Positions 8,771-50,150 of a stretch of 64,000 bases of DNA are shown here, piece by piece. A program made the position numbers and the translations under genes. The stretch's first letter is position 1, and each line of letters begins with the position of its first letter. The notes below the pieces were generated by a model that saw only the letters and a list, made by a program, of their open reading frames with translations, was not told where the DNA came from and did no database searches. Source of the stretch: Apium graveolens (Eukaryota; Streptophyta; Magnoliopsida; Apiales; Apiaceae); contig NC_133657.1 of the NCBI RefSeq assembly GCF_009905375.1, positions 64,730,219 to 64,794,218 on the forward strand, given 5' to 3'.

Positions 8771-8774
8771 TAGT

Positions 8775-25361: not shown

Positions 25362-25615
25362 GATTCTTCAACAACAACCGGATTTTGTACTAATAGTTGA
25401 ACTTCATCATAGCTTCAACATGTAGAATAGAATTTTAAATTTGAGCAGAATGTGATCCAGTAGCTTTGGAAGCTTCCACATCTTCAGCAGTTAACTCCAC
25501 ATCTTCAAGTATTGTAGATAAATGAATTGGAGCTTCGAGATTTACTTCCAGAACTTCAGTTCCTGTAACATGCTATGGTGATTCTGAAATGAATGAAACT
25601 TTATGAATGGACTGT
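25362..25615 (-). pseudogene. Env-like ORF of element E, middle fragment
   Basis: 254 bp of E sequence between the solo LTR and element B. It reads as low-complexity env-like linker (Glu/Val/Ser-rich, minus strand) with no complete frame. Continues at 38115 beyond B. Confidence 0.6.
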
Positions 25616-26646: not shown

Positions 26647-26648
26647 AT

Positions 26649-26661
26649 TGGTATCAGATCA
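26649..26661 (+). other. Primer-binding site of element B
   Basis: TGGTATCAGATCA, two bases after the LTR; the first nine bases match the initiator-Met-tRNA site. Confidence 0.88.
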
Positions 26662-26707
26662 GGTTCTTGAAGAACAAAGAGTTTAAAGATCACAACAAAA
26701 CAGCAAG

Positions 26708-29103
26708 ATGAACAAGAAGGATGTTGGAGTCAAGATTCCTTTTCTGGATAAAGATAATTACCATCACTGGAAGGTAAAGATGCATCTTCATTTAATTTCT
26801 CAAGATGAAGCCTATGTAGATTGCATAGAGAGAGGTCCTCATGTTCCAATAGAGCTGCAACTGGAAATGAGACATCAGTCCCCAAGCCAAGGCATGAATG
26901 GTCTGATCCTGATATTGAACAAGTCAGGAAAGATAAGAAGGCCATGAATATCTTGTTCAATGGAGTTGATGGTGACATGTTTGACAACATCATCAATTGC
27001 AAAACTGCAAGGGATGTTTGGGATACTATATAGATTATCTGTGATGGCACTAAACAAGTTAGAGAAAACAAGATGCAGCTGCTAATTCAGCAATATGAGC
27101 ACTTTCATAGTGAAGATAGTGAGTCTTTCACTGACATATTTAGTAGATTTCAAAAACTACTAACTGCTCTGAAGTTGCATGGAAGGGTCTATCAGATAAA
27201 AGACTCCAATCTTAAGTTCCTTAGATCTCTTCCAAAGGAATGAAAACCTATGATAGTCTCATTGAGAAACTCTCAAGATTACAAGGAGTTTACTTTAGAG
27301 AGACTGTATGGCATCCTCAAAACTTATGAGCTTGAAATAGAGCAAGATGAGAGGATAGAGAGAGGAAAAAAGAAAGGAGGATCCATTGCACTAGTTGCTG
27401 AGTTAGAGAAAGAGAAGGAGATGAAGATGGAAGTTGTTGAATCAACTTCAAAGGTCTGTGAAGACAAGGGCAAGGGGCTGGTAGTAGAAAATGAAGATTC
27501 TTTGAGCCAAGATGACATGGAAGATATTGATGAACATCTAGCATTTCTTTCCAGAAGATTTTCCAAGCTCAAGTTCAAGAAGAACTTTGGAGCAGCCAAG
27601 CCAAATAGAAACATGGTGAATAAATCTAAATTTAAATGTTTCAAATGTGGCTTGGCAGGGCACTTTGCCAGTGAGTGTAGAAAGTCATATTCCAATAAAA
27701 AGAAGTTTGAACCTGTGGATTATAAACAGAAATACTTTGAGTTGCTCAAACAAAAGGAAAGGGCTTCATTACACAAGAAAATGACTGGGCAGCAGATGGT
27801 CTGGATGAGGATGAGGATGTCAGCTATGTCAATCTGGCCCTAATGGCCAAGTCCGATAAAATAGAGACAAGTTCTTCAAGTAATCAGGTAATCACCACTA
27901 ACCTTGCACATTTATCTAAAGCTGAGTGTAATGATACCATAAATGACATGTCTATAGAACTATATCATTTACGTGTTACACTTAAGTCTCTTACTATTGA
28001 ATATGCTAAAATTAAAGAAAAAAATTTGTTTTTAAGTGAGTGGAATAATGTGCTAGAGTCTCAGTTCATTGAATTTGAAAAATTAAGAATTGAGTGTAAA
28101 TTGCTAAGGATGAATTAACTGAGTCCTTGAAGAAAGAAGAGATCTTGAAGAAGCAGCTTGAACGAGAACATGAGGTGATTAAGGCATGGAAAACATCTAG
28201 AGATGTTCATGCTCAAATCACCAAAGTTCAAGGTATTGAGTACTTTTGTGATGCATCCTGGAAGAAGAACAAGGAGAAGCTGGAATCCAATTTGGTGGAA
28301 GGATTGCTAACAGATGTAGACTCGATGGATGATGAGGGTCATCCGTCGGATAACAAAAAGAGTTATCCGTCGAGTGATATAAATCCTCATCCGTCGATTG
28401 TGAGCAAGCCTGTGAGTAAAGCCAAACTTGTCAAGTTAAATGAGAAATATGGATCAGTTTCCAAGAATTTTGTTTCAGGAGAATCCAGTCGAGTGAAGAA
28501 GGAGAAAAAGGCTAATGTTGGTCATATGACTGTCAAGCAATTGAGTGACAGATTGGAAAAGATTGAGGTTAAACAAAGGCTAAAAGGAAAAATAATAGAA
28601 ATGGTAAAGTAGGAATTAACAAGCATAACAACTACACACCTGATAAATATGCTCAAAGAAAAATCTGTGTTAAGTGTGGTAGTGTAAATCATTTGTCTGT
28701 TAATTGCAAAACTGCCATGCCTACTTCCATATCTGTGCCACCTCATTTTCCCAACATGAATGCCATGCCTTCTATGCCTATGAATGCTATGTCTACACAG
28801 AATATGAATGCACAGTTTACTAATATGCCATTTGCAACTAATCCTTATTATGCTGTATTTAGTATGCCACAAATGGCATTTAGCATGCCTTACTGGAATA
28901 ACATATTCACTAGTAGCATGCCATTCCTTGTTAATCAAAATATGCATAACAATTCTGTTGCAATGAAAGGTTTCAAAGGTCCAACTCAAATGACTAAAGA
29001 TAAATCTGATATCCCCAAGTCAAATGAGATAAAGCCTAAGAAACAGAAAAAGAAAGCTAACAAGGCAGGACCCAAGGAAACTTGGGTACCAAAATCAACT
29101 TGA
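26708..29103 (+). pseudogene. Copia gag with two zinc knuckles and a Met-rich tail (element B)
   Basis: Start MNKKDVGVKIPFLDKDNYHHWK at 26708, 47 bp after the PBS; this is the conserved gag N-terminus in this group. A frameshift falls near 26870, with stops at 27031 and 27241, then a long frame to 27843 with an acidic/basic linker and the knuckle CFKCGLAGHFASEC (27636). Helical segments follow (27843-28118, 28127-28612) with four of the CCGTCG motifs at 28319-28395. A second knuckle, CVKCGSVNHLSVNC, is near 28670. A Met/Asn/Pro-rich segment (28710-28950, e.g. MPSMPMNAMSTQNMN) and a Lys-rich end follow. At least four frame breaks. Confidence 0.9.
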
Positions 29104-29117
29104 TTTGATTTTGATGT

Positions 29118-29351
29118 GTGCAGGGAAACAGAAAGAATCTATGGTACTTGGATAGTGGTTGTTCAAGACACATGACTGGTGATTCTACCCTGCTCACAGA
29201 GTTCAAGGAGAGAGCTGGCCCAAGTATTACTTTTGGAGATGACAGCAAGGGTTATACTGTGGGATATGGTTTGATTTTAAAAGATAATGTCATCATTGAG
29301 GAGGTTGCCTTAGTGGATGGTCTCAAGCACAATTTGTTGAGTATTAGCTAA
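29118..29351 (+). pseudogene. Copia protease (element B)
   Basis: Retropepsin motif LDSGCSRHMTG at the start and EVALVDGLKHNLLSIS at the end. A TAA at 29349 interrupts the polyprotein. The same frame continues as integrase. Confidence 0.92.
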
Positions 29352-30569
29352 ATTTGTGATAAAGGCAATTCAGTAACCTTCAACTCAGAAGCCTGTGTTG
29401 TGACTAACAAGATGAGCAACAAAGTGGTTCTCAATGGTGTGAGAAAAGGAAATGTCTACCTAGCTGACTTCAACTCATCAAATGCAGAATTTGTTACTTG
29501 TCTTCTCAGCAAAGTAAGTCAGGATGAAAGTTGGTTATGGAACAAGAAGCTATCCCATCTAAACTTCAAGACCATGAATGAACTAGTAAAGAAAGAACTA
29601 GTAAGAGGCATTCCTCAAGTGGAATTTTCTAAGGATGGATTGTGTGATGCCTGCCAAAAAGGAAAGCAGATCAAAGCATCATTCAGAAAGAAGCTTGATT
29701 CAACAATTGAATAACCTTTACAACTGCTACACATGGATTTGTTTGGACCAGTCAATGTGTTGTCCATATCAAGAAAAAGATTTTTCCTAGTAATTGTAGA
29801 TGATTTCTCAAAGTTCTCTTAGACATATTTCTTAAAGTCTAAAGATGAGGCTAGTGAAATCATCATCAATCACATAAGGCAAGTCAATAATCATCCTGAT
29901 TTCAAAGTTAGAAGAATCAGGAGTGACAATGGAACTGAGTTCAAGAATTCTGTCATGAGAGCATTTTGTGAAGAAAATGGGATTTTGCATGAGTTTTCAG
30001 CAGCAAGAACTTCACAACAAAATGGAGTAGTAGAAAGGAAAAATAGATCACTTATTGAAGCTGCAAGGACAATGCTTGAAGAGTCTAAGTTACCAACATA
30101 TTTTTGGGCTGAAGCTGTAAATACTGCATGCTACACTCGGAATATTTCTCTGATTAATCAAGCAAAATGCATGACTCCCTACCAATTGTTCAAGAACAAG
30201 AAGCCAACTCTAAATTTTCTTCATGTCTTTGGCTGTAAATGTTATATCTTGAGAAATCAAACTGATCAGAATGGAAAGTTTGATGTTAAAGCAAATGAAG
30301 GAATTTTTATTGGATATGTTGTTGGTAAAGCATATAGAGTCTACAATCTAAGAACCAACATTGTTGTGGAATCAATACATGTTGTGTTTGATGATAAAAA
30401 GATTGAAGGACTGCAAGATGGAGATTACCATGAGAGTCTCAAATTTGATAATGTGGAGATGGTTAGTGATGGCAGTGATGATGAAAGTGATCAAGAAACA
30501 ATATTAAAGGATAATGCTAAAAAATCTCCTACCAATGAGGCACAAAATTCAACATCTGTCGAGTTATAA
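29352..30569 (+). pseudogene. Copia integrase (element B)
   Basis: The GAG-pre-integrase zinc-binding part shows LSHLNFKTMNELV ... CDACQKGKQ. A stop at 29712 splits it from the catalytic core, where D (MDLFGPV), D (SDNGTEF) and E (GVVERKNRSL) are all present. A second stop (TAG) is near 29821. The core is followed by VFGCKCYILR and a FIGYVVGKAYRVYN block. An acidic linker runs to the stop at 30569. The linker carries five ATCCGTCGGG-type units (30555-30660). All three catalytic residues remain, but the two stops break the reading frame. Confidence 0.92.
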
Positions 30570-32465
30570 AATGCTTCATCCGTCGGGAGACAATCTGCTT
30601 TATCCGTCGGGAGATAACCAGCTTCATCTGTCGGTACTCAAGATTCACCATCCGTCGGGTAATCAAAAGAAGCTGGAAGTCAGAATAGATCACTTACAGA
30701 AAGCTCCCCTTTCACAAATCAAAGATCCATTAACTCAGGGGGAGTTTCAAACAATCAAAACTCAATCACACATCAAGACAACAATGAGGCCTTTTCATCT
30801 AGAGCTAATCTACCTCAACAGAGGAAATGGACAAAGGACCACCCCTTTGAGCTTATCCTTGGTGATGTATCTTCTAGAGTTTAAACAAGGAGAGCAACTC
30901 AAGAAGAATGTCTATACAGCAGCTTTCTTTCTAAGGAAGAACCAAAAAAGGTAGAAGAAGCTTTGTTGGATCCTGATTGGATTTTAGCTATGCAGGAGGA
31001 GCTAAACCAATTTGAGAGGAATAAAGTATGGAAGCTGGTGCCCAAGCCTAAAGGAAAGAATCCAATTGACACCAAATGGGTATTCAGAAACAAGATGGAT
31101 GAAAATGGCATAGTAGTCAGGAATAAATGTAGATTGGTTGCTAAGGGCTATTGTCAACAAGAAGGAATAGATTTTGATGAAATATTTGCTCTTGTTGCAA
31201 GACTTGAAGCCCTCAGAATCTTCTTAGCCTATGCAGCCCATGCCAATTTCAAAGTCTATCAAATGGATGTCAAAAGTGCCTTTCTGAATGGAGATTTGGA
31301 GGAGGAAGTCTATGTCAGTCAGCCTCCTGGTTTTGAAGATCCAAACTTTCCAGAATATGTTTACTATCTTTTGAAAGTACTTTATGGACTGAAGCAAACA
31401 CCTAGAGCCTGGTATGACACTTTGTCAAAGTTTCTTTTAGAGAATCACTTCACTAGAGGTACTGTAGACAAAACTCTTTTCTTTAGAAATGTTAATTGCT
31501 CTAGTATACTTGTTCAAATTTATGTATATGACATTATTTTTGGCTCGACAGATGAAAAACTTTGCAAAACGTTTGCCAAATTGATGCAAAGTAAGTATGA
31601 AATGCGTATAATGGGAGAACTAACTTACTTTCTTGGTTTGCAAGTTAAGCAAGTTAGTGATGGAATATTCATTAGTCAAACTAAATACATTTATGATCTT
31701 TTAAAGAAGTTTGATCTAATGGATTGCACATCTGCAAAAACTCCCATGGACACTGCAACCAAACTTGAGTTAAACACTACTGAAAAGCCTGTGGATATTT
31801 CAAGTTATAGGGGCATGGTTGGCTCATTTCTGTACGTAACAGCTAGTAGGCCAGATATAATGTTTGCTACATGTTTGTGTGCTAGATTTCAGGATGATCC
31901 TAGAGAATCTCACTTAGTAGCTATTAAGAGAATTTTCAGATATCTCAAGGGAACACCAAAACTTGGCATTTGGTACCCTAGAGATTCTGGTTTTGATCTA
32001 ACTGGTTATTCAGATGCAGATTATGCAGGTTGTAGAATTGATAGAAAAAGTACAACATGAACCTGTCAATTTCTAGGAAACAAGCTTGTGTCCTGGTTCA
32101 GTAAAATGCAAAATTCAGTTTCTAAATCTACAGCTAAAGCTGAATATATTGCTGCTGGCAGTTGCTGTGCACATATTTTGTGGATGAAAAACCAATTGCT
32201 AGACTATGGTCTGCAAGTGGAAAGAATTCCCATTTTCAGTGATAACACATGTGCAATTTCCATCACTGAAAATCTAGTACATCATTCAAGGACAAAGCAC
32301 ATAGACATCAAATACCACTTCATAAGGGAACATGTAATGAATGGTACTATGGAACTACATTTTGTTCCAAGTGAAAAGCAGCTTGCAGATATATTTACCA
32401 AGACACTAGAGGAATCCACCTTCTCAAGGTTGGTAAGTGAGTTAGGTATGCTAAATTATTCTTAA
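30570..32465 (+). pseudogene. Copia RT and RNase H with mutated YVDD (element B)
   Basis: From 30570 to about 30960 is decayed linker. From 30963 a 365-codon RT frame shows [56 protein letters not shown] and a changed active site YVYDIIFGS (31521), with Tyr in place of the first catalytic Asp. RNase H follows (YSDADYAGC). A TGA at 32058 precedes CQFLG. The last part (32088-32465) has KAEYIAAGSCCA, FSDNTCAI and the HIDIKYHFIREHV block. Replacing the catalytic Asp should abolish polymerase activity. Confidence 0.95.
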
Positions 32466-32858
32466 ATCTTTTCAGATAATTTGCAAGTTGTTATGCAGCC
32501 AGAAATTTAATTGATTTTTCAGTCTTAGATGGAATTTTGGCTAAGTCAGAATTTACATCTCGATGGATGATCTTTATCCATCAAGTTTGATCATCCGTCG
32601 GAATACTGTTTGTAAATAAAAATCAATTATTTTTCTGGAATATTTTATAACTCGACGGATAACAGTTTATCCTCATCCGTCAAATTGTCTTAATCTTAGC
32701 CATTAATTTCCTGAACATTATCCATCGAGTATATTTACAGTTTGTAAGCATAACACGATGGATAATTGATGGAATTTTTACAGTTTATTTTTTAAACGGC
32801 TATTTTGGGCAATTTTCATTGGTTACTTTATTATTTTTGACAGTTATTTTTGAGATAG
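32466..32858 (+). other. Spacer between pol and env-like ORF (element B)
   Basis: Non-coding. Contains about seven units of the CGACGGAT / ATCCGTCG motif in both orientations (32559-32765). No homologue of the small ORF of elements C and E. Confidence 0.7.
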
Positions 32859-32866
32859 TATAAAAG
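32859..32866 (+). promoter_or_regulatory. TATA box upstream of the env-like ORF (B)
   Basis: TATAAAAG, 116 bp before the ATG at 32975, followed by a pyrimidine-rich leader (CATTTCC, CTTTTCTTT, TCTCTATCTCTTC). Same arrangement as element A. Confidence 0.55.
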
Positions 32867-32974
32867 CTTATTTCATTTCCATTGCTTTTCTTTTATCATT
32901 CTCAAATTATCTGCTCTAAATTCTCTCTCAAAAGCAACTATCATCTCTATCTCTTCAATTTCCACTTTCTAACA

Positions 32975-35900
32975 ATGGCACCATTAGTCAAGATCAAGTT
33001 ACAAACTGGATACATCTATGAGAAGAACAACTTCACGGCTCTAGTAAACAAGGGGATTCAACATTCAAGTGACTACCACAAAATGATGGATTTTGTGAAG
33101 AACTGCAAACTCAGTTATGCAATGCTAGAATCACCCACCATCTTCTGTGAGGTTGTTGAGGAGATGTGGACGACTGCTACATACAACTCTACTGATAAGA
33201 CCATCACACTCATTATTAAAGGTATGGAATTCTGTATCAATAGTGATGTTATTAAGGCATGTTTCGAAATTCCTGATAATATTGTGACCTCACCACACAC
33301 AGATACTGATATTGTTAATATGCTTAATTCCATGAACTATGCACTCTCTACTTCTAAGTTAAGTGATATTAGGAGGTTGGGTCCTAGGAAAGAATGGAGT
33401 TTCATGTGTGATGTATTTACCAAGGTCTTTTCTGGTAAAATCAGTAATTTTGGTTCTGTTAATATCTCAATGCTTAACATGCTTTACATGCTAGTCACAG
33501 ATAACTTCTTTAATTTTAGTGATCTTATTTTGTTTGAGTTGGGTTTTAAATTGGGGGAGTTAAACAAGATGGGTAAAAATGTTTATTATGCTAGATTTTT
33601 TATGATGCTAGCTAACCACCTCTCTGAGGAAATTGTACTTGAGAACCCAAACAACAAATTAGATTGTTGGGTTCAAGAGAGAAGAATTATTGCAGATTTA
33701 AATAGGGCAAACCATCACAAGGAGGTGCCACTCTTCTATTTCCCTGTAATGGAAGCACCTCAGGTAAGTGAGGTAAGTTCATCTGTCTCTACTATTCCAA
33801 CCTCACAAATTTCTTTACAATCTAGTGTAGCTATGGAAACTGTGTCAATGACCCAATGGTTGCCTACCCAAGCTTCCAAATCCAAAACTTCTAAATCCAA
33901 GTCAAAGAAAGCCCCATCTGGTATCTCTCAAAAGATGCCAGTTATAAAATCCACCAAAACCAAAGAGGGGAGTGTGAAGGTGAGAAAGGTAGGTGAGGGA
34001 TAGGGTGAACATAAAAGAAACCCTACGGATAAGGATGGAGAGTTGAGTGGTTCCCAACCTAGCCATACTGCAATTTTCCAACAAACTGCAGTGATTAATA
34101 AGGATAAAAGCTCATTTCTAGTTGCATCCTCCCAAAAGGATGTGACTATTGAACAAAGCTCTCAACCAAGAGCACAGGTCAAAAGGGTAAGGGACACTAG
34201 CTCACCCCAAACTTATACCAGAAAGAAGAAATTAAAAACCTTTGGGGATGCATAGGGTTCACATACTGTGCAAACTGGTGCTAAAGACACAGTCACTGCA
34301 CCTTCATAAATTCATCTTGATGTGGCTCCAATAAATGTGGAGTCACAGCCAAAATCATTAGTTATAGAAGCACCTCAAATACTAAATTCTCCCACAAACT
34401 CTCTAGATAAGGATATGATCAACACATCAATTCCTGATTCCCCTTCTTTAACTTTGTTGGGGAAGCCAAAATCTAGTGCAAGTGAGCATCATCTTTTGGA
34501 TGATTTGTTGGCTCACTTGCCAATTCTTTCAGAAACTGTTGAAACATCTGTGCCCAAAATCTCATCAATCAGCACAGAGTCCATAATAGTTTCAATTCCA
34601 AGTTCATTCATTTCTACTCTCTCGATAAATATTGCTCATCCGTCGAGTAGTGATTGTATCCCGACGGATAAGCTTAACAGCATTTATCCGTCGGATAGTC
34701 AAACTGCTAACCCGATGGATATTCCTCATTCGTCGGGTGTCTCTACGCAACTTTAAATTTCATCTATTATCTCTAGTGCAGAAGACTTAGTGGTTGTACA
34801 GTCACTCTTAGGATTGAGGGAAGAGAGCGTTATGAGTGAGAGTCTGGGTTGCTCCCAGGAAAAAGGAGAGGAAAAGAGTGAAAATATGTGATTCGTTTCT
34901 TCAGGATTGGCAAAAGAGAGTGAGAGGAGTCCTACCTTAGATGGTGAAGGTGAGGGTGTGAGGGTGGGGAGCAGGGTGAGACCCTGATGCAACCAAAGAG
35001 AGAACAAGAGAGAAATGGAGGTACATGAGCTATAAGGATGGATGTCATTGCTAGTGAGTTAATGAATGTCCAGGATGCAGACAGGGAGGGACTATCTCAA
35101 CAACCTCAAGCTATTATAGATTCCACATCCCTTGATGCTGAGGCATTTACTCACCCTATTCCAGCTTATCAACTTCTAGCTGAATAGGGCAATGACAATG
35201 CATAAAGGATGCTCAATTTGGTGCATACCACACATTCCATGCTAAGAGCCAAGGATGCCATCACAGCTTTGCCCTCTACAGCTGGTGATGTTGATTATGA
35301 AACTGGTGCTTCAACAGATTTCTTTGGAGATGAAGGTGGAGATAGTGAAGAAGAGCCATTGGACATAGGGGAAGAAGTAGGTTCCGGTTCAAGATCAGGT
35401 ATGCCATCATGGACATTTTCAAAGCATTATGATGAACACTACTTCAAGAAAACCCTGATTCAACTCATAAATCAGACAAATTCTGCTGTTCAAACCACCA
35501 CAAATGCCAACACCAAGAAACTCCTTCAAGCACATCTTGTTTCTCTGCAACTATAACAAATTCAAGGCTTCCAATATGCTAGAGATGTCAACACCATCAA
35601 GGGTGATATTAATGAAATGAAAAAGGCTATTTCTGACAAGATGGACTCTAAGCTTCCAGAAGCTACAATGCTTGACATCAAGAGACAACTCAGTAAAAAT
35701 ATTGATCTTGCCACAAAGATAGATGCCTTGGATATAAGAATGTCAGCTATGGAAGCATCTCTAACAGCCATTCATCTGTATCAAGCTCACCAAATAGACT
35801 TGCTTCAAAAACTGGTGGCTGCACAAACCCCCTCTTCTACTCAACTTGATGATAACAAAAAGGGGGAGAAAGGACCAAGTGAGGGGGAGAAACAACTCAA

Positions 35901-37072
35901 CATTCAAATCAGTAGAGTAATTGTGCCTACAATTGCTTTCACCAAGCCACTAGTTACAGACAGCATTGATCTGATAAATGAAGCATCAGCCAATTTAAGA
36001 GCAGCTGAAACAGAGCAGTTGAAGCCAATCAACTGGGAGAAAATTGATGAGGACATACAAAAGAAGCTTGGGCTAGTAAAGAAGCCAGAAAAGTCAGCCA
36101 TTCATCACTTTCAAGTCAGGCAAATCTCTATGAATGAAATGAGCATGAACTATCTGGAAAAGGGGACAGCCATCCTGCATCAAATCTCCAAAGGCTGAAA
36201 TAATTCTGAAGCCAAGGGTGAATTATCCAAAATCATCATTAAATAACCCTTTGGATACAGTGTATGAGACACCTAAGCCTGATGATAAGAAACTGTTGTC
36301 AAGGTCAATTGCCTTCTACAAGGATCCAGCTGATTCAGCCTTAAAAAGGAGAATTGCTAAAGTTTTCAGGAATGGGAAAGAAATTTGTGTGGTGGCTGGA
36401 CATCCTTAATTTGCTCAAGGAAAGAGAGAAGAAAAGGCAAGATTGAAGCAAGAAAAGAACCAAGCTATTCTAGATGCTAAAAAGGCTAAACAAAAGAAAG
36501 AGCAAGCTGCTATCTTGGCCAAGCTACAAGCTGTGAAACCAACACAACAAATTCCTGCTCAGCCATCTGAAATCACTAAATCTCAAGATTCAAAGAAGCA
36601 AGTTGAACCACGACAGAAGAAGAAATCTCAAAGATACAAGGAATTGGCCAAAAGAACCAAAAGGAAATTGGACTTTGTTGATAAGGAATTGAAGGATCAG
36701 TTTTCCAAGGAATCCACTCCAACTACAACTCAAGCATCAAAACCCTCTGTGGTATTTGAAGATATTAAAGTGGTGGATTCTTACAGGAACATTCATGGTG
36801 AACCTATTGTGCCTAAGGATGAACCAATAGACTGGGAGAGTTTACCAATTCCTGACATCAACTTGCCAATCCTTAACAAGCCAAAGAGAACAAAGTCAAG
36901 AGCAGTCAAGAAAGTGAAGTTGTCACCTCTCAAATCCAAATCTCTAACTAAAGCTCAATCCAAAGTCAACAAGGGAGATTACATGTACTTAAGTGACATC
37001 AAGTTTCGCTTAATTAATGGCTACAATTCCAGTAGACATAAATTGGGGGAGATTGTTGTGGATATGTTGTGA
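32975..37072 (+). pseudogene. Envelope-like third ORF (element B)
   Basis: Starts MAPLVKIKLQTG at 32975. The first 342 codons are open: an N-terminal globular domain (blocks GMEFCINSDVIKACF, KEWSFMCDVFTKVF and KNVYYARFFMMLANHL), then a Ser/Thr/Pro/Lys linker. A stop at 34001 and further stops near 34252, 34308, 34754 and 35189 separate later segments: a Ser/Pro linker containing five CCGTCG-type motifs (34637-34740), an acidic stretch (35290-35400), a coiled-coil region (35560-35880, ending DDNKKGEKG) and a long Lys/Gln-rich helical tail to 37072. It fills the place of the SIRE env-like ORF. I see no convincing transmembrane anchor, so an envelope role is unsupported. Confidence 0.82.
37041..37053 (+). 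other. Polypurine tract of element B
   Basis: AATTGGGGGAGAT directly before the 3' LTR. It overlaps the last codons of the env-like ORF. Confidence 0.9.
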
Positions 37073-38114
37073 ACTTGATGATTTCATTAACAAAACACCT
37101 TGGTAGATTTTACTTAGTAAAAAATGTTGCACTCGACGGATAAGGATTATAGTCCCGACGGATGACTCAATATAGTCCCGATGGATGATGATTTATTATC
37201 CATCAAGTGAGTAGCTTGTGTAACAATAAGTCTATAGCACATTTTTGTATACACATTGTTTAGATTCTGTAGTAGTACTCAAGTCATGTTGACTTTAACT
37301 AGATATACAGAATAGGTTGATTAATTGTACATAGATGATTTCTTGTAATTCTGCATAAATGAAATGAAGTCAAGTGCTAGATAGCTACTCGACGGATAAA
37401 CAACAATGCCACTCGACGGATGATCAAAAAGGAAACCCGACGGATGATCATGAACCCGACGGATAAAGAATTCAAACATCTGTTGACAGTGACAACAAAG
37501 TCACATGCGTCGAGTGTATGCAAATGGAATGTGAAAGCCTATTCAACTGGGTTTTAGAGAACAAAGAAGCATTGCCATTTCCATTCTATTATGAAGATAT
37601 TCAAAGATGCTGGAATAGAGTAATGAATTAAAAAGATTCTAATGGTGGAAGGGCTATCAGCATAGTATTAGACTTGATAGGTTTTTTTTATTAGCTTGCC
37701 TTATTACTTTGTAATCTTGGTGATATATAAACCAAGAAGTAGCAAATTGAACAACAAGAACAAGACTAAGAACATTATCTCAGAGAAACAATTGTAATCT
37801 GCATCCTTAGCATTTCTTTGTAAACTTAGTTGTTCATATTTGTAAGCAGCTGTGAGCTAATCTTGCTACACAGAGTTCTCTTGATATAATATATATCTCT
37901 GCTGGATACTTTCAAATCCACCAGAAAGTTTTTAAAGACTTGTGTTTTTAATTACTTGTGTTTTGATTCATTTGAAGTTATTATTCCGCACTTTGCAAAT
38001 CAACTCACTCATATATATATTTTAAGTTAGAATACTTTTTAAACCAAGAAAAAGTTTCAAGAATTCCATGCAACCCCCCTTTTGTAATTCTTGTTGCATT
38101 GTTAGGGACTAACA
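37054..38114 (+). repeat. 3' LTR of copia B (1,061 bp)
   Basis: Same ends as the 5' LTR. It differs by scattered substitutions and has about 26-30 extra bases near 37625-37660 (AAAAGATTCTAATGGTGG region) that are absent from both the 5' LTR and the related solo LTR at 24313. That points to an insertion in this copy. Confidence 0.93.
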
Positions 38115-39480
38115 ACTGTTGTGCTACTACATCTTCAGAAACAACAGGGATTTCCTCAAGTGATGGTAAAGTAGAGTAAGTGGACTATTTTTCAATAAAA
38201 ATAGGGATTGTACTATGTGGTGGAATGGAAGAATGTATGGACTGCAAGAAAGTATTAGTACTTAGACTTGCAGGGAGATTAATAGCCCTTGGTGTATCAC
38301 AGTGTTCTTGATGTTCAACAGAATGCTGTTCCGTATCTGTTTCTTTAGGACTCTGAGCACCTACAAACATAAAGCAAATAAACCTTAATCTGTCTATTCT
38401 TTTCACACCACACATCTCATGACTTTTAATAGTCAGAGCTTCCTCACAAGGATTACTAAATCCTATCTCTCATCTACCTCTCCTTTTTTCAGGAAGGATC
38501 CTGCCTCTCTTAAATTCTGTTTTTCTCTCAATCTTTTCACACATCTCATAGAAAAAGGCTTAGAAAGATTGTCCTACAGAAATAAGATGTGGCTAAAGAA
38601 GGGTGATATGTGGTCATGCAACTAGAGATAGTCCTTAAATAAGATCTAAGAGTAATCATACCAACATGATTTATATATATAGAAAATATAATAAATGCTG
38701 AAAGAACTAGATCAGTATTTAGAATAAATGATGATAAAGTAATAACAATATTTATACCTTGTGAATACATAATTTAGCTCACAGTTGATACTGTGGTTAT
38801 GACAGTTGTTGTTCATCAATAATGAGATCCTCCATTTGAATTGGAGAGGATTTGATCAGGTTACTGTCATGTACCATGATCTCAAACCCTGTTCTTCTTG
38901 CAAAGAACTAACACTTGAATGTGTTTATTGAAAGCTATCACAGAATCTTCAGTGAAAACTGATGAAACCTCTATGTCTTTGTTAGTATCATTAAGATCTA
39001 CCTCAGCAAGTAGTCTCTAACCAACTAAATGTTGTTTCTGAGTGGTGAGCACAATTCAAGAATTATGCCACTTGATTTTTGGCAACATTTGAGAAAGAAT
39101 TCAAGTGTTTAAATTGTCAGAAGAAATTTAAGATTTAAGATATTTAGTATTAAGAAATGAGTGTGAACAACTTTCTTAATGAGAAAAAGAAAGTTTCAAA
39201 GATCTTGAATAGAATGTAATACTCAAAGATAATAATCCTTATTGACTAAAAATTAAATCTTCCATAAATGCCTTCTTTAACAACAGTTATTTCTTGCAGA
39301 GTGCTCAATTTGTACCGAAGTATTCACATGAACTTAAACAGACATTAGTTTATTCACATGCACTATTAAAAACATTTGAAGTTTAGCATGCAGTACTGAT
39401 TTGGATATATCATGTAAAAGCATTTAAGCACACATAAACAAGAAAGTAATCAAGTAAGACAACAAAGAAACTTAAAGATT
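38115..39480 (-). pseudogene. Env-like ORF of element E, N-terminal/linker part
   Basis: Continues E beyond element B. Frame 38415-38185 and decayed sequence to about 39020 correspond to the linker of env-like ORFs. The stretch around 38810-38880 resembles 63690-63760 in element F. From about 39020 to 39480 it is AT-rich and partly resembles the flank of the small ORF in element C (16660-16880). No intact start of the env-like ORF seen. Confidence 0.55.
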
Positions 39481-39559: not shown

Positions 39560-39928
39560 CTATCCCATCTTCAACTTCTTCAGAGCTTCTTGCTTCTTCA
39601 TGGCTCGGCGGTGATAAATTCTACTCATTGTGCCTGCAAGAGAGAAGTTATTCTCTTGCAGTCCGAGAGCTGCTTGACGAGCACGTTCCGCCAGTTCAGC
39701 ATGGAGTTCTACTTTAAGAACAACTTCTGCGGTAAAGAAATGTAGTTCCAACTGATCATCCCAAGAGAGATGATCATAGACTGAATTTAGAACTTCGATT
39801 GGGTGATAAACTTCGTTACTAATACAAACCTTAAATCTGTATGGATCAAAGTACATCTTTTCATCACTAGGATTAAAGATCGTTAGATAACATCCACCGC
39901 TGCGTGCGTAAAACTGGAATTGAGCTAT
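39560..39928 (-). pseudogene. Small accessory ORF, 122 codons (element E copy)
   Basis: Same gene as at 16895-17263: 369 nt with the stop at 39560. The frame is fully open, but the codon matching the start is ATA (39928-39926) instead of ATG. The open frame runs on upstream to 40075 only because the leader lacks stops. Conserved blocks are QFYAR, MYFDP, YHP, DQLELHFFT, and MSRIYHRRAMK followed by KKQEALKKLK. The middle (KVELHAELAERARQAALGLQ) is likely an amphipathic helix. It lies about 480 bp after the end of RNase H and before the env-like region, on the element's sense strand. Function unknown. The lost start probably silences this copy. Confidence 0.72.
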
Positions 39929-40011
39929 TTTTGAGTTATGAATAGAGTATTGAGAAGATGTTGAGTTGAGTATGAAAAAGGCAATGAGAAGTTTTGAGGA
40001 TGGAGGATTGT

Positions 40012-40020
40012 ACTTATAGC
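40012..40020 (-). promoter_or_regulatory. TATA-like box of the small ORF (element E)
   Basis: Minus strand CTATAAGTA, about 85 bp before the start-equivalent codon. Position and leader character match element C. Confidence 0.45.
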
Positions 40021-40075
40021 AGAGAGGTTTAGAAACTGAAGGGACTCTTTGATGAACCATGTAATGATTGACCAT

Positions 40076-40554
40076 AATGCAAATACACGATTACGCGTAT
40101 CTAATTGAACAAAAAGTAATCTCTCTCTTCATATTCCTATTCCCAAAGTAAAATACTCAAGTATTACAAGATACTTGCATCAGTAACTAACCCATTTAAG
40201 CAATTAAAAGATATTCCAATATCTCACTGTATAATTACAAATACTGCTTAAAAATTTATTTCGAACAAGTTCAAAATAATAAATGAAGTATAACAATCAA
40301 TTAAGTTTCGATCATTATCAGTATTTTAATTACGAATATCAGGACTTATCAACTATTGACATAACAGATTAGTCAAAGCAAGTTTAAATAATAACAGAAT
40401 ATGTAAGCAAAATCAATAGTTCAACATGCAATTTTCACATAAAATCATTTAGCACAATTTGCATGTTATCATGGCATCAACATTTAGCATAGAATCAGTA
40501 TATAACAATTACTGACAAATAATAAGATATCGGGCTTCAATAATATCAGCATAT
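40076..40554 (-). other. Spacer between pol and the small ORF (element E)
   Basis: AT-rich, no open frame. The part next to the small ORF matches 17370-17560 in element C, showing that the promoter region is also conserved. Confidence 0.6.
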
Positions 40555-41835
40555 TTAATTATCAGAGTTTGAGAATTGTCCTGAAATCATTCTGAATTCA
40601 TTCACCAATCTTGTGAAAGTAGCTTCACAGAGAGGCTTGGTGAATATATCTGCTACTTGTTGATCTGTTGGAACAAAGACCAATTCCACTATACCAGCTT
40701 CCACATGTTCTCTTATAAAATGGTATCTGATACTGATGTGCTTAGTTATTAAATGTTACACATTGCAATAACACTTTGATTATCACAATATATAGGAATA
40801 GAAGAATAGTCTAACCCATAATCCAGTAATTTATTCTTCATCCATAGAATCTGAGCACAACAGCTTCCTGCAGTAATATATTCTACTTCTGCAGTTGATA
40901 TGAAAATTGACTTTTATTTCTTACTTTACCAAGAAACCAATCTTCCACCAAGGAATTGGCAGCTTCCAGAAGTGTTTTTCCTATATATTTTGCATCCTGC
41001 AAAATTAGCATCTGAATATCCAATTAGCTTAAAGTCTGAATCTCTAGGATACCATAATCTCAGATTCATGGTGCCTTTGAGATACTTAAAAATTCTTTTC
41101 ACAACTATTAGGTGAGGTTCTCTAGGGTCAGCTTGGAACCTTGCACAAAGACATGTAGCATACATGATATCAGGTCTACTACAGCCAGATATATGAGTGA
41201 TCTAATCATACCTCTGTAGTTAGTTATATCTAGTAAAGAACCGGTATTTAAATATAAATTGGTTGCAGTGGATATAGGAGTTGATGCAGTTGAGCAGTCT
41301 TGCATTCCAAATCTTTTGATTGGATCCTGGTGTATTTGGATTGATTTATGAAGATTCCTTCGTCAGTCTGTTTAACTTGTAACCCCATGAAGTTACTCAA
41401 TTCTCCCATCATACTCATTTGATACTTGGACTACATTAGCTTTGCAAATCTCTCAAAGAGTTTATCATTAGTAGATCCAAAAATGATATCATCAACATAT
41501 ATATGTAGTAATAACAAGTCCTTACCATGGTATTTATAAAAGAGAGTTTTATCAATTGTACCTCTTGTGAAACCACTCTCTAGCAGAAATAGAGCAAGTA
41601 TTTCATACCAGGCCCTTGGAGCTTGCTTCAATCCATAGAGTGGTTTATCCAGTAAGTAGACATGATCTGGATACTTTAGATCAATGAACCCTAGAGGATG
41701 TTCAACATAAACTTCCTCTTCGAGTTCTCCATTTAAGAATACACTCCTCACATCCATTTGGAAGACCTTAAACTTCTTCCGAGCAATATAGGCAAGAAAG
41801 ATTCTTATTGCCTCTAGCCTTGTAACTGGAGCAAA
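40555..41835 (-). pseudogene. Copia RT (C-terminal) and RNase H (element E)
   Basis: From right to left: [14 protein letters not shown] at the G1 insertion point, [31 protein letters not shown], intact [12 protein letters not shown] (about 41490), then frameshifted pieces with [38 protein letters not shown] and the RNase H end down to TAA 40555. It is closely similar to element A. Frame breaks near 41430, 41300 and 41165, among others. Confidence 0.93.
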
Positions 41836-44800
41836 TATAACGCCCCCAAATCCGAGGTCAGGGGATTTGGTCATCACTATGAAATCTCAATCCAAAATAA
41901 CATGTTTAATCAATAAATAAATACCAACAACTCAAATATAGCATTTATGACCCCAAACTATAACAGGATCTTTTCAGGTTACAGTTCTAGAAACAAGAAT
42001 TCCAAATTTCACAAATAATTTTTTTTCACTTTCTTGTAAACCGTTTTCAACAAATTCCAACTCAATACTAAACCCGCTAGTATAACTTCAAAAAGAAGTA
42101 TACTAGGCCCAACTATACTATACACAACTATAATATAATATAATATAAACAACTTTATATAATAGAACTTACACTAGTCCGCAAACCCTGGACCAACCAC
42201 CTTTCAAAAGCTTCTTCTTTGCTTCCTCGAATTACGCGGCTAAATAGCGCAGGCTAATCCTCACGTTGTCTAGAAGTTAGTCACACTCGCAGTAACATAA
42301 ACATCTCCATCTAGCATCTCATGAATTCATTGTCTTTCTGTTTCGACAACTCATTGATATGCATTACTGTTGAACTTTACTCTGGATCCCAAAGTATTGT
42401 CTTGATCATCTTGAATGATTCACATCTTACAGAGCTTTTTCTATCGAGCGTTAGGTTATTCTTAAACCGACTTCGGGACTTGGGTCTTTCATCTGGAATC
42501 TACAGAGTCAAAATACCCTCAATTAGACGATCGCTTAAGCTTGTCATATCATCACTATCACTTATACCCTTTTGATTACATAGCCTGACTCATATTTATA
42601 TGAACTACCTCAACATACAAAATAGGTACGGCTCACGTACTTTGAAATTTGGTTCGGTAGTTATTTCAGAAAATATGAATAACTGTCGTTATAGAAAAAT
42701 AGGGTCATAGGGCTCTTTTTGTAAAATATTTTGCCAAATTGATTTACATACTACTAGCTATTGGAATCATGGTTCAAAATTTAACATAGATTGGAAGAAC
42801 CGAATTTTTATTTAATTAATCATTAATAAGGCAAACTCACTAATTTACATCAGTAATTATATCTGAGAAACGTTTAACCAAATACAACTCAAGGTCATAC
42901 TATTCCAAGTTAGTTTCTTGTATCGAAAAGTAAATTTGTAAAACAATTTACATACTCATATAAACAAATGAACGATTGTGATTCTGATAATTAAAGGATA
43001 CGTTCCTGAATTTCCAGAAATAATAATTTCTCGGAAATCGGAAAACACCTCCTCTATTTATCGGACAACCCATCGAAACATAATCGACGTCAAATTCCCA
43101 AAAATCACAATTTCGCAATCCATATCTCAATACGACTTTTACAAAAAATAACTATTTACAAACTACTTTATCTGCTTTATAAATTTAGGACTCAGAATTA
43201 ATCATCACCATCCACCGTCGGCTCGCCGAACTCATCGTTGACGGCGGTAAAATTCGCGGGTACACGATTAGTTTCGGGTTTCCAACGCAAATTCTACCGA
43301 TTAATCGTTACTAAATACACCACGAAATATATATTTTTCACGAAATTCACTAAAAATATTCCTACAGAAAATGAGACAATTAAATAATTAAAAGATTCCC
43401 AACACAGGCGTGTGCAATCGCACACACAATATCATATAATACCCGAAAAGCCCAGAAACAACCGGCAACAAACCAGAGATACACAAGCACAGGACACGAA
43501 CTGGACTTACATATATACACACACGCGTGTATATATGTTTAACCAACAAGAAGCAAACTGAAGCAACCAAAGAATACCCCGGCATCGGCGGAAAGAAAAA
43601 AACAGGGGGCGGCGGAGTCACCGAAAAACAGAGCATAGGCGGCGCCGAAAATGAGAAAGGAAGAGGGAGAAGCGGGGGAGGAGGAGAAGTGAGAGGGGGA
43701 GAGATTACGAGAGAGATGAGATAGAGAGATTTAGGAGAGAGAAGGGAGAGTATATGCGTGTATATATTTTAGGGTTTTTGTCTGAAGAAACCGTGTTGAA
43801 TTCGTGTATATCTCCTCTTTCCAACACGCGTCTAGTTACTTGGCACGTATCACTTTCCAGTCAATAAGCCTATTTCTGTATCGTTTTAATCTATTTAACG
43901 ATACAAGGTACAAATAAATATTAATCGAAATAACACCACAATAATCTTAAAATTATCTAAATATTCTGAAACTAATAAGATATAAGTTTCAAAATTTTTA
44001 AAACATGTTTGGATTGAAATTTAAACCCGCGTTTTATGATTTAACGAACAAACATGTGGGTATATAAAACCCAAAAAAATACCAAAATAATTCTAAAATT
44101 ATCGGAATAATTAAAAACTAGTAAAATAAAATTTTTATAATTTTTAAAACATTTTTGAGTTACGCACTATACCCGCAATTAACGATTACACGAACAAACT
44201 TGCGGGTGAATTTAATCAGAAAAATTTCCGAAATAATTTTAAAATTCTTAAAATATTCAAATACTAATAAAACATAAGTTTCGTAATTTTTGTAATAATC
44301 TTGAAGTTAATATTAGATTTACACTTAAATACAATCATAAAATCATTTAGGGATAAATAATTGACAAAATATTATTTTCTAAATTTTATAAATTTCCAAA
44401 AATAATTATTGAAATTATAAAGCCATACAAATAATTTTAAATTTAAATATTTATGAAAATAAATTTTCAATAAAATCACTTTTAAAGGCAAAAACAAAAT
44501 GATATGACTCAGTAATTAATAATACAAATAATCCTTAATCACAACCGAGTCACACACAATTAATATTACATATGACACATAGCTGACATAATATCCACAC
44601 AATCACTAATATTACTAAACTGACTCAATTTACCGATATCAATAAAATGACCGGCTTTCAAATGAACTTTTAAAAATAATACATTTAACTAAATATTTTC
44701 AGAAATTAACAAGGATCGATACAACACTTAAGAATTAGCACATTACCATTTAATAACACGAACTCGTCAAATAGGAATAAAATATCCACCATTTTACTCC

Positions 44801-44873
44801 TTTCAAATCAGAAAATCACATAAACTTATTCAAATAATACTAATAATAATTCTGAAAAATACGGGATATTACA
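41836..44873 (-). repeat. 3' LTR of G1 (3,038 bp)
   Basis: Ends TATAACGCCCCC (from TGTAACG) and GGGATATTACA. On the minus strand a TATA-like stretch (AAAATATATACACG, about 43760) precedes a ~100-bp pyrimidine-rich leader (complement of 43660-43755). The tail is very AT-rich. Confidence 0.92.
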
Positions 44874-46391
44874 ATCTACCCCCTTATAAGGATTACGTCC
44901 TCGGAATCAGCAGAAGAGAGAATACTAGCTTAGCCCATTATTTTTGAGATAATGGCCTACTTCTTCACACGCTTCAGTCGTTGAGTCATCAAAAAGCTAT
45001 GTGAATTCATTTATTTTCCAATCTTGCATACATAACTTTTCTCAAAATCTCAAATCAAACTGGGATTCCTTGTGTAACATAATTATCATGGAAGCTTTAC
45101 TTCGCACCATTACTCCTTCCACATATCATTTGACCAATTTCTCAGTAGAATCACTTTTACCGATAGAGAGAAAGAAGAATAGAGAAAAAGATAAAGAGAA
45201 AGAAAAAAAGAGATAGAGATAAATAAAGAGAGAAGTAAAGGAACAGTCTAACTTCGTTATATGCCACTGATATTTTAATCGCATTGCACTCCACTGTTGC
45301 TATTGGTAATCCCATCACATAGCCTTACTTTGACTTGACCAGAATAACTCAGTCCAACTTAATTGGTATACCTTCGAATATTCAGATGATAAAATCATAG
45401 AACTTCAAAGAGAAATGAATTTCGTATCATAATGGGTGTCCCACCATTATGGCTACCAAAATCTGAATTTTAGAGAAAGTATTGTTGAAATAAAGGAGTA
45501 GCTGAGATATCAATATGATCAAATGAACTTGATGTTGCGTGCCCAAATTAAGACATTACTAAAGGTTGTTAACCTTCTTGTAGTCACAACACACAAAAGT
45601 GATGGCATCCCATCCAACTTCTATCACATAGACAGGTATACCTTGTGTCCCCTATAATTAGGGTTGTTCATCTCAGTCTGAATAAAATAATTTTGAAATG
45701 TATTCAAAATTAAATGAATAATAAAGGATTTCTGATAAATGACTTGTTAATACAATCCGTGGATCAAAACTGAAAAGGTTTCAAAGCTAATATTTCTGGA
45801 GAAATAATGAAATCCAGAAAATAAGATTCTAGCATAAAATGGCTAAGTGGTGTCGTAATACCAATAAACTATCCACCATATAAGAAAGGTGGAAATTTCA
45901 ATATTGCACTTGACAGAGCTATCCAAACCTGGAAAAAAGCTTCATGACAGCCTCTGGCACATTACGTGATTGAAAACGGGTGTTAGGGAATATCTCCACT
46001 AACAAATACCTCTTTTTGAGAGATGATAAAAGAAGTTATAGAAAGAGAAGGTTTGCCAAAGTCTTAATACTTATCTTTTATTTAAACTCCTCTGTTAACT
46101 CGTCATCCGATTCTAGACACTTCTTAAGTTCTAAGGATATCGATAATCTTGGTCGTCGTCGAATTGAAGTAGCCTCAGAAGATTCCATAATAGAAATTTG
46201 CAACTACCAGGAGTTTTGTCCAGCTCAACACAATCATCTAAAATAAATGCGCTTATCTTAGCTTACTCGTTGGTACTATATCCAATAGTCCAACAGGAAC
46301 TCGATATGAGCTCAAGCATCCTCGCATAACTATACACACTCCTACATACTCTCGTTTCTATCTTGTTATAACCTCGGCTCTGATACCAACC
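44874..46391 (-). other. Internal region of G1
   Basis: 1.5 kb without retrotransposon domains. From the PBS the first minus-strand frame is a 36-codon ORF (46188-46078), opening MESSEATSIRRRPRLS, of unknown meaning; it could be a relic of gag. A purine-rich run (45170-45240 on the plus strand) and the PPT (minus-strand AAGGGGGTAGAT, ending at 44874) are the other landmarks. Confidence 0.6.
46376..46389 (-). other. Primer-binding site of G1
   Basis: Minus strand TGGTATCAGAGCCG, a full match to the usual initiator-Met-tRNA PBS, two bases from the LTR end at 46392. Confidence 0.9.
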
Positions 46392-49300
46392 TGTAACGCT
46401 CCCAAATCTGGGGTCAGGGGATTTGGTCGTCACTATGAAACCTCAATCCAAAATAACATGTTTAATCAATAAATAAATGCCAACAACTCAAATATAGCAT
46501 CTGTGACCCCAAGCTACACCAGGATCTTTTTAGGTTACAGTTCTAAAAACAAGAATTCCAAATTTCACAAATAATTTTTTTCACTTTCTTTTAAAACCCT
46601 TTTCAACAAATTCCAACTCAATACTAAACCCGCTAGTATAACTTTGAAAAGAAATATACTAGGCCCAACAATACTATACACAACTATACTATAATATAAT
46701 ATAAATAACTTTACACAATAGAACTCACACTAGTCCTCAAACCCTGGACTAACCACCTTCCAAAAACTTCTTCTTTGCTTCCTTGAATTACGCGGTGAAA
46801 CAGTGCAAGCTAATCCTCACTTTGGTGTCTAGCAGTTAGTCAAACTCCCAGTAACATAAACATCTCAGTCTGGCATCTCATGAATTTATTGTCTTTCTAT
46901 TTCGATAACTCATTGATATGTATTACTGTTTAACTTTACTCTGGATCCTAAAGTATTGTCTTGATCGTCTTGAATGATACGCATCTTACAGAGATTTTTA
47001 TATAGAGCACTGGGTTATTCTTAAAGCAACTTCAGGACTTGGGTCTTTCGTCTAGAACCTACGGAGTCAAAATACCCTCAATTAGACGATCGCTTAAGCT
47101 TGGCATATCCTCACTATCACTTCTACCCTTACGATTACATAGCCCAACTCGTATTTATATGAACTACCTCAACATACAAAACATATAGGGCTCACGTACT
47201 TTGAAATTTGGTTCGGTAGTTATTTCAGAAAATACGAATAACTTCGTTATAGAAAAATAGGATCATAGGGCTCTTTTGCAAAATATTTCTCCAAATTGAT
47301 TTACATACTACTCGCTATTAGAATCTTGGTTCAAAATTGAACTTAGATTTGCAGAACCGAATTTATATTTAATTAATCGTTAATAAGGCAAACCGACTGA
47401 TTTACATCTATAAGTTTATCTAAGTAACGTTTAACCAAATACAACTCAAGGTCATACTATTCCGAGTTAGTTTCTTGTATCGAAAAGTAAATTTGTAAAA
47501 CAATTTACATACTCAATAAATAAATGAATCGATTAATAATTCTAATAAATAGAGGACACCTTCCTGAATTTCCAGAAATAATAATTTCTCAGAAATCGGA
47601 GAGCACCTCCTCTATTTATCGGACTACCCGTTGAAACATAATCGATGTCAAATTCCCAAAAAATCACAATTTTGCAATCCACATCTCAATACGACTTTTA
47701 TAATAAATAACTATATATGAACTACTTTATTATCTTTATAAATTTAGGACTCAGAATTAATCATCACCATCCACAGTCGGCTCGTCGAGGCTCATCACCG
47801 ACGGCGGTAAAATTTGCGGGTACCCGAATAATTTCGGGTTTCCAACACAAATTCTACCGATTAATCGTTACTAAATCCCGCACAAAATATATATTTTTCA
47901 CGAAATTCACTCAAAATATTCCTGCAGAAAATCAAACAATTAAATAATCAAAAGATCCCCAACATAGGCGCGTGCAATCGCATGCCCGAAAAGCACAGAA
48001 ATGGCCGGCAACAAACCGGAGATACACAAGCATAGGACACGAACTGGACTTACATATATACACACACGTGTGTATATATGTTTAACCAACAAGAACCAAA
48101 CTGAAGCAACCAAAGAATACCCCGCCATCGGCGGAAAGAAAAAAAAAGGGGCGGTGGAGTCACCGGAAAATAGAGCATAGGCGGCGCCGGTAATAAGAAA
48201 GGAAGAGGGAGAAGGGGGAGGAGGAGAAGTGAGAGGGGGAGAGATTACGAGAGAGATGAGATAGAGAGATTTAGGAGAGAGAAGGGAGATTATATGTGTG
48301 TATATATTTTAGGGTTTTTTTCTGAATAAACCGGATGAATTTGTGTATATCTCCTCTTTCCAACACGCGTCTAGTTACTTGGCACGTATCACTTTCTAGA
48401 CAATAAGCCTATTTCTGTATCGTTGTAATCTATTTAACGATACAAGGTGCAAATAAATATTAATCGAAATAACACCACAATAATCTTAAAATTATCTAAA
48501 TATTTTGAAACTAATAAATATAACTTTCAAAATTTTTAAAACATGTTTGGATTTAAATTTAAACCCCCATTTTATTATTTAACGAACAAACATGCGGGTA
48601 AATAAAACCCAAATAATTACCAAAATAAGTCTAAAATTATCGGAACAATTAAAAACCAGTAAAATAAAATTTTCATAATTTTAAAATATTTTTGAGTTAC
48701 ACACTATACCCGCATTTAACGATTACACGAACAAACTTGCGGGTGAATTTAATCAAAAAAATTCCTTAATAATTTTAAAATTCTCAAAATATTCCAATAC
48801 AGATAAAACATAAGTTTCATAGTTTTTGTAATATCCTTGAAATTAATATTAAATTTACACTTAAATACAATCAGAAAATTATTTAGGGATAAATAATTGA
48901 CAAAATATTATTTTCTAAATTTTATAAATTTCCAAAAATAATTATTGAAATTATAAAGCCATAAAAATAATTTTATTTAAATATTTATCAAAAAATAAAT
49001 TTTCAATAAAATTACTTTTAAAGACAAAAACAAAATGATATGACTCGGTAATTAATAATACAAATATTCCTTAATCATAATTGAGTCACACACAATTAAT
49101 ATTACATACGACACATATCTGACAGAATATCTACTCAATCACTAATATTACTAAACTGATTTAATTTACCAATATCAATAAAATGATCGGCTTTCAAATA
49201 ACCTTTTTAAAATAATACATTTAACTGAATATTTTCAGAAATTAACAAGGATCGATACAACACTTGATAATTAGCACATTACCATTTAATAACACAAACT

Positions 49301-49409
49301 CGTCAAATAGGAATAAAATATCCACCATTTTATTCCTTTCAAATCATAAAATCACATACACCTATTCAAATAATACTAATAATAATTATGAAAAATACAG
49401 GATATTACA
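46392..49409 (-). repeat. 5' LTR of G1 (3,018 bp)
   Basis: Ends TGTAACGCTCCC and GGATATTACA. Same layout as the 3' LTR, including the TATA-like stretch (about 48300) and the pyrimidine leader complement (48200-48295). By eye about 12 differences in the first 135 bp, mostly transitions, as expected for methylated DNA. Confidence 0.92.
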
Positions 49410-50150
49410 GCAAATATCTCATCATAATCAATGCCTTCTTGTTGTGAGTAACCTTTTATAACCAGTCTTGATTTATTCCTTGTAACAATGCCCTCACTGT
49501 CAGTTTCGTTTCTGAACACCCACTTTGTGCCAACTACAGATCTGTTCTTTTGTCTTGGCACAAGAGTCTAGACTTTGCTCCTTTCAAATTCATTGAGCTC
49601 TTCTTGCATTATTGTGACCCATTCAGCATCTTGCAGAGCCTCTTCAACCTTCTTAGGTTCAGTTTGAGATATAAAAGAATGATAGAGATATTCTTTCTGA
49701 GTGGATTTTTTTGTTCTTACACCACTGTCAGGGTTTCCAATGATTAAGTCCGGTGTGTCTAACTTAGACCATTTTCTTGCAAATGGAAGTTGACTCCTTG
49801 AAGACGAACCTCCACAGAAACAGGGAATTCAACCATATTATGATTAGAATATCCTGTGTAAGGTCCTTCAATGGATAAATTGCCTTCATATGTGTTAGGA
49901 GAGAGTGCTGTAATTACTACCACATCTAGCACAACATTTACCTCCCCATGACTAATAAACCTAGATATATCTGCAGATAGGGGATCTGACATAGGTGCGG
50001 ATCGGCAACCCATTGGTGATGAACCAGATTTAACTTGTGAGCCTCAAGGGAAAGTGTCTTCATCGACACTAGAGGAAGCTGAGGAACAGATGCCAGATTT
50101 GACGACCTCAGTGATCCTTCCAGAGATTTCAACTCTGGACTAGTCATCTC
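49410..50150 (-). pseudogene. Copia IN-RT linker and RT N-terminus (element E)
   Basis: Upstream part of the E polyprotein. From right to left: a decayed Ser/Glu/Val linker, then the LDTPDLIIGN-like segment, the [17 protein letters not shown] block, a frame break, and from 49561 [37 protein letters not shown]. At that point G1 is inserted and the frame continues at 41835. It matches element A (8775-9240) block for block. Confidence 0.9.

Follow-up and report, generated by a model that had tools for sequence, protein, structure and literature searches.

Additional open reading frames (ORFs) after pol are already known, and one of the closest described cases is gene23 of Grande, a maize Ty3/gypsy element, for which an accessory gene with its own promoter and a nuclear protein is reported (PMC7264820). 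In the Sireviruses, an internal promoter for env had been hypothesized but not conclusively identified as of 2010 (PMC2829016). The REXdb survey set its lower limit for extra ORFs at 250 codons and would therefore not have listed genes of the smaller size considered here (PMC6317226). We analyzed a 122-codon ORF, named X, that is represented by two copies in elements E and C of a 64,000-nt window of the celery (Apium graveolens) genome (C11:64730219-64794218), using the 3.33-Gb assembly for genome searches.

On the minus strand, element E reads RT plus RNase H, X, and an env-like remnant, the whole being split by a nested element and by element D, whereas element C reads gag, protease, the start of the integrase region, and X, followed by the insertion of element B (Table 1). 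The RT matches PF07727, and the X-bearing elements are called SIRE-like here by the slot after pol together with the env-like gene. The env-like piece beyond D may belong to E. The LTR pieces of D are 96.2 and 93.3% identical, the 3′ LTR of B was placed by eye at about 15928-16522, and tblastn in the window found no match to X in D. Several other features of the window were recorded. The nested insertion is an LTR-type element. A further env-like gene, of element F (61977-63814, minus strand; also L036), resembles the D N-terminal domain by eye, and no X copy for it was found in the 2.15 kb past the window end. A dense cluster of direct and inverted repeats, many of them 72 to 85% identical, occupies 56995-61640, and G+C content is very low at 54001-56000 (22.6%, versus 29 to 43% in the other 2-kb windows).

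Table 1. Features of elements B to E in the window
Feature	Position	Strand	Details
X ORF, copy E	39560..39928	-	122 codons plus stop, open; codon 1 is ATA
X ORF, copy C	16895..17263	-	ATG, 122 codons, single internal stop at codon 91
TATA-like box of X in E	40011..40018	-	TATAAGTA, 90 nt before codon 1
TATA box of X in C	17354..17361	-	TATATAAT, 98 nt before ATG
Conserved block 5′ of TATA (-230 to -100)	40028..40158	-	70.6% identical, E versus C
RT (3′ part) and RNase H of E	40564..41838	-	tblastn with B and D pol; frameshifts, stops
RT region, 5′ part, of E	49400..49807	-	Severed by nested insertion
Nested element in pol of E	41838..49409		Direct repeats of ~3 kb, 90.9% identical
Env-like remnant of E, 3′ of X up to D insertion	38116..38361	-	Has the stop common to 16/22 aligned copies (E is L001)
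Env-like remnant, tentatively assigned to E, beyond D	23770..24309	-	28% identity to B env; 71-80% to three E-type copies
Element D	25615..38115	+	LTRs 25615-26647 and 37053-38115; lies between X of E and far env-like piece
TATA box of D env-like gene	32859..32865	+	116 nt before ATG (32975); by eye, single copy
Gag, protease, integrase-region start of C	17940..20098	-	tblastn/domain matches
Element B	8736..16522	+	RT-RNase H 8736-10528; env-like ORF from 12030; inserted downstream of X of C
TATA box of B env-like gene	11882..11889	+	148 nt before ATG (12030)

A preliminary description of the window, made from its sequence, had reported two minus-strand ORFs of 369 nt that align without gaps at about 48% identity, share two motifs, and carry one lesion each, and these points held in full, coordinates included. 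The two proteins agree at 58 of 122 residues without a gap (tblastn E-values, 1.2e-32 and 3.9e-33), the DQLELxFFT and MSRIYHRRAMK blocks are present in both, and the lesions are the ATA at codon 1 of E and the stop in C. Identities at codon positions 1, 2, and 3 were 74, 84, and 60 of 122 (position 2 minus position 3, permutation P = 0.001), and neutral simulations at equal nucleotide identity (n = 5000) yielded at most 52 identical residues. Because of this codon-position pattern and because the 58 residues observed exceed the simulated maximum, the likeness of E and C exceeds chance. For this pair, pN was 0.334, pS was 0.655, and dN/dS was approximately 0.28; none of 1000 codon bootstraps reached a pN/pS of 1.

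The preliminary description had also placed X between pol and an env-like ORF in two elements. This placement was right for E, where the end of RNase H lies 636 nt upstream of X and an env-like remnant follows X. For C it found no support: no match to integrase, RT, or RNase H falls between gag-protease and X, and no env-like ORF can be established after X because element B is inserted there. Both elements do carry X, but the number of copies had been greatly understated. The tblastn search of the rest of the genome that had been proposed for the translation gave 3421 first-look candidates with X of E and 3832 with X of C; the best 150 for each query were scored, and 150/150 matched in both cases, at 67 to 100% identity for E and down to 48% for C. 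The two candidate sets overlap, and beyond the 150 scored for each they consist of first-look candidates only. Among the 30 E-type copies L001 to L030, codon 1 is ATG in 28, no internal stop occurs in 15, and both hold in 13. RNase H ends 627 to 683 nt before X, in the same orientation, in 25/30 E-type copies (window copy E is L001); it lies about 50 nt from X in L007, and no RNase H match was found before X in L006, L016, L019, or L029. In addition, 30 loci were found with the upstream DNA of E, irrespective of X, and 29 of them have an X match, the exception being L065. X therefore lies downstream of pol in sense orientation and in most copies of its family, as is expected of an aORF-3S (sense additional ORF between pol and the 3′ LTR).

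A TATA box stands at one aligned place in 28/30 E-type copies, 97 to 100 nt before codon 1 in 22 of them, and its window falls in the top 1.6% of 254 windows for conservation. Across 12 divergent lineages (ten fetched copies plus E and C), TATA[A/T] occurs within -125 to -65 in 11, compared to a Markov expectation with a mean of 2.4 and a maximum of 7 (500 trials); the box is lacking in one lineage, L074, whose sequence upstream of -3 is unrelated. E and C resemble each other most in three places: before the TATA box (70.6% identity at -230 to -100), within the ORF (59.6%), and over the first 100 nt past the stop (67.8%). The leader is 39% identical, and the outer windows give 45 to 57%. In sequence, then, X has a putative core promoter at a fixed distance, as expected of an accessory gene with its own promoter, and we infer that it may be expressed as a transcription unit of its own from a promoter active at the fixed TATA box. 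The B-type env-like genes likewise have a TATA box, at -135 to -165 in 20/20 fetched copies (approximately 2 expected by shuffling), which common descent may explain, since the median identity of these copies is 90%. Fixed TATA boxes before X and before the B-type env-like gene make the Sirevirus internal-promoter question directly testable.

From the frame and length kept in both copies, the preliminary description had argued for past protein-level selection and had named dN/dS across many copies as a check. The answer is split between recent and divergent copies. An unbiased E-type sample was formed of 23 E-like copies picked by upstream DNA, with the first 240 nt of X compared; its ratio was 0.84 (0.71 to 1.08), inside the range of 27 null windows (0.59 to 1.69), so that no selection was detected within the recent E-type burst in this sample. 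Nonsense changes were fewer than expected (ratio, 0.27), and indels numbered 0.24 per 100 nt in the first 240 nt of X versus 0.63 to 0.87 in the flanks; the X ORF has a frame-breaking indel in 13/23 of these copies. The pol control of this test is invalid because the pol frame of E is itself broken. Copies picked by protein score gave a context-corrected burst ratio of 0.53, below all 39 null windows (0.74 to 1.29) and falling with divergence. We do not rely on this value because such picking favors conserved proteins, and a count of zero frame-breaking gaps in X was set aside as biased in the same way, given those in the unbiased sample.

Divergent versions of X gave lower ratios. Among the seven copies of a family lacking most of pol (hereafter pol-less; see below), pS was 0.56, pN was 0.23, and dN/dS was 0.26 (median over 21 pairs, 0.24), compared to 0.64 for gag in frame, 0.46 for protease in frame, and 0.66 to 1.0 for six spacer frames. 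C-type versus E-type X gave a median dN/dS of 0.24 over 28 pairs, and six pairs within the E-type gave 0.61. The ten fetched deep copies were each picked because they lack an internal stop and together span a range of X identities, which makes the X divergence among them partly an artifact of choice; in all ten, the ORF can be aligned almost end to end. Since the burst sample lies inside the null, the case for selection rests on the deep comparisons, which bear out past protein-level selection between divergent versions (dN/dS of about 0.25 versus 0.66 to 1.0 in the spacer frames).

The loci found by upstream DNA do not all carry the same X. An E-like version is present in 23/30, but five (L043, L045, L057, L059, and L061) have another version, 35 to 36% identical to E by tblastn, and L058 (46% identical to E) combines a further version in the N-terminal part with an E-like end. 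In these six copies, the flanks are 87 to 91% identical to E, whereas X is 35 to 46% identical. By window, the mean identity of the five swapped copies to E was 92, 85, 92, 93, 91, and 82% from -1300 to -50 and dropped to 58% from -50 to 0. The first 240 nt of X gave 48 and 51%; from there to +470 the values were 63 and 63%, and up to +1400 they returned to 87, 85, and 81%. The other 22 copies were 80 to 92% identical to E in all windows except at 240 to 470 (73 and 72%), a dip that hints at possible further mosaics. In the swapped copies, about 1.3 kb before and about 1 kb after X stay homologous, and X with its borders alone is exchanged in the compared stretches. The N-terminal parts of four X versions are 27 to 42% identical to each other.

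Exchange is also visible in a wider set of 63 distinct copies, in which 251 of 1052 pairs (not independent of one another) with upstream identity of at least 80% fall below 65% identity over the first 250 nt of X. The swapped copies lie dispersed over a backbone tree of 49 copies, but its supported branches require just one change, and swap events therefore cannot be counted. L065 was counted as a swap in this tree and is better read as an X interrupted at -46. A set of 170 pairs with different flanks and similar X was left unused: 169 involve L006, L007, L019, or L029 and are uninformative because an upstream insertion or deletion in these four may explain them. That the examined flanks stay unchanged when the X version changes speaks against X binding those flanks, and the swapping of highly different versions between similar elements suggests a protein aimed at a changing target.

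X is retained where most of pol is absent. In the pol-less family (window C, L067, L068, L069, L070, L072, and L076), gag-protease is followed by X, and queries for integrase core, RT, and RNase H found no match between gag-protease and X in any of the seven copies, window C included. The gag-protease flank differs by 0.09 to 0.14 in every pair of this family, and X differs by 0.15 to 0.46; X diverges beyond that flank in 21/21 pairs and beyond the nearer spacer in 20/21, the spacer being more diverged than X in the remaining pair. Elsewhere among the deep copies, RNase H lies 674 nt upstream of X in L073, integrase without an RT or RNase H match precedes X in L075, and L071 has integrase and RT pieces. 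As for env, an env-like match was found downstream of X in 3/5 long E-type downstream stretches (L032 and L034 being without), and the env-like remnant could be aligned in 22/30 E-type loci, with a same-codon stop in 16/22 (L028 is too short to reach it), counted in the frame that resembles env by eye. In that frame, dN/dS was 1.4 (1.0 to 1.9) in 19 copies; another frame gave 0.38, which is a warning on single-frame tests. The E-type env was thus probably already broken while X was retained. In L009, a splice-acceptor-like TTTGCAG opens the env-like remnant about 1.57 kb after the X start, and for this reason env may be spliced.

What has to be explained, then, is a gene with a fixed TATA box, constraint between its versions, exchange of those versions, and retention in a pol-less family, as computed from the copies above. 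We consider it probable that X is a promoter-driven accessory protein renewed by cassette exchange and perhaps aimed at a host target. On this account, X would be an accessory gene of SIRE-like Ty1/copia elements, in sense orientation in the slot after pol. The unit would begin with the upstream block and a TATA box some 100 nt ahead of the ATG; a short leader would then precede a single ORF of about 122 codons that has no intron, and the sequence right after the stop is conserved. The protein could possibly be made without the help of the LTR promoter. Other versions would be gained by recombination, most likely by template switching between copackaged RNAs, one junction falling in the leader and the other inside the ORF or shortly after its end. 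Selection would maintain the protein while new versions are tolerated or favored, and X may act on a host target that keeps changing, for example silencing or some other restriction. We put forward only tentatively the stronger form of this idea, in which X is a hypervariable counter-defense protein whose old versions are traded as a promoter-driven cassette between pol-bearing and pol-less elements because silencing or restriction by the host favors the rare ones.

The serious competitor, which we nevertheless regard as unlikely, is that X serves the element itself, as a constrained gene with an ordinary role in RNA packaging, the particle, or nuclear import. Its divergence would then reflect nothing more than old families that recombined later, in the absence of both a host target and any pressure toward new versions. 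Retroelements recombine readily, purifying selection fits such a role, and so does a pol-less family that keeps gag-protease and X, if X works on its own RNA or particle. It is harder to reconcile with an exchange confined, in the compared stretches, to X and its borders between long homologous flanks, or with highly different versions of X serving the same backbones.

AlphaFold2, given X of E and the two pieces of C, returned a model (pLDDT, 84.9; pTM, 0.59) with strands within residues 7 to 41 and a helix at 56 to 121, so X is predicted to have a small N-terminal region rich in beta strands and a single long helix that terminates in a basic tail. Conservation is higher in the C-terminal segment, which holds the MSRIYHRRAMK block and the basic tail, and the tail could act as a nuclear signal. 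The preliminary description did not recognize this protein from SIRE/Maximus elements, and in agreement with this no described family was matched in the libraries searched. Among the open papers listed by word searches, no title or displayed abstract describes such a gene either, which is no proof that it is undescribed.

Between the two origins first offered, a captured host gene or an element gene, the evidence favors the element gene. Capture of a host-plant gene together with its promoter would account for the gene-like layout with TATA box, leader, and no intron, but it is very improbable: a protein database with many plant and some celery proteins gave no match to X (in a search that depends on common words of 5 residues, which a distant gene could escape), and every assignable relative with examined surroundings, among the best 150 candidates scored per genome search, lies in retroelement sequence. 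Still less probable is that X represents the beginning of the env-like gene, split off from the rest, and no gene of its own. X does occupy the slot in which B and D begin their env-like ORFs, which are also TATA-led, but tblastn of X found no match with a meaningful E-value in the env-like ORFs of B and D in the window, so X was not found there to be a fragment of a known env-like domain, and the E-type copies have a separate env-like remnant downstream (3/5 stretches; 22/30 loci). Least probable of all is chance or noncoding conservation as a by-product of a conserved regulatory stretch, for although flanking noncoding blocks are conserved too and the unbiased within-burst test was neutral, the codon-position pattern of E versus C, the low dN/dS between versions relative to the spacer frames, and the nearly full-length alignability of the ORF in the deep copies all speak against it.

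The favored reading, an accessory protein renewed by cassette exchange, can be set beside several known systems. X shares its slot after pol with the Sirevirus env-like gene (eORF-3′F), which in B-type copies and in D also has a TATA box before the ORF. The env-like ORFs, however, are far longer than X and show no tblastn likeness to it, and E-type elements have both X and a separate env-like remnant. BARE-2 is the subject of a study reportedly titled 'life without GAG'. Like BARE-2, the pol-less X family has been amplified with an incomplete coding set, presumably helped in trans; unlike BARE-2, it keeps gag-protease and X, and what is missing at the expected place is the remainder of pol. 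VANC, the anti-silencing protein of Arabidopsis VANDAL transposons, offers a model for a possible host-facing role of X, since related versions differ between related elements as they do for X (PMC5735166). VANDALs are another class of element, and VANC binds motifs in its own element (PMC5735166), whereas the examined flanks of X stay 87 to 91% identical when the X version changes. Like Grande gene23, X is an extra gene between pol and the 3′ LTR that is present in many copies; unlike gene23, which is antisense in a Ty3/gypsy element, X is sense to pol, belongs to Ty1/copia elements, and has about 122 codons, the likeness being one of description (PMC7264820). Version exchange is not described for gene23 in the part of PMC7264820 considered here, and the exchange of versions is the unusual trait of X among ORFs after pol. 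X is kept with most of pol absent and env probably broken, and its versions are swapped. This combination suggests that an abundant class of plant elements carries a function that has been overlooked and may be directed at the host.
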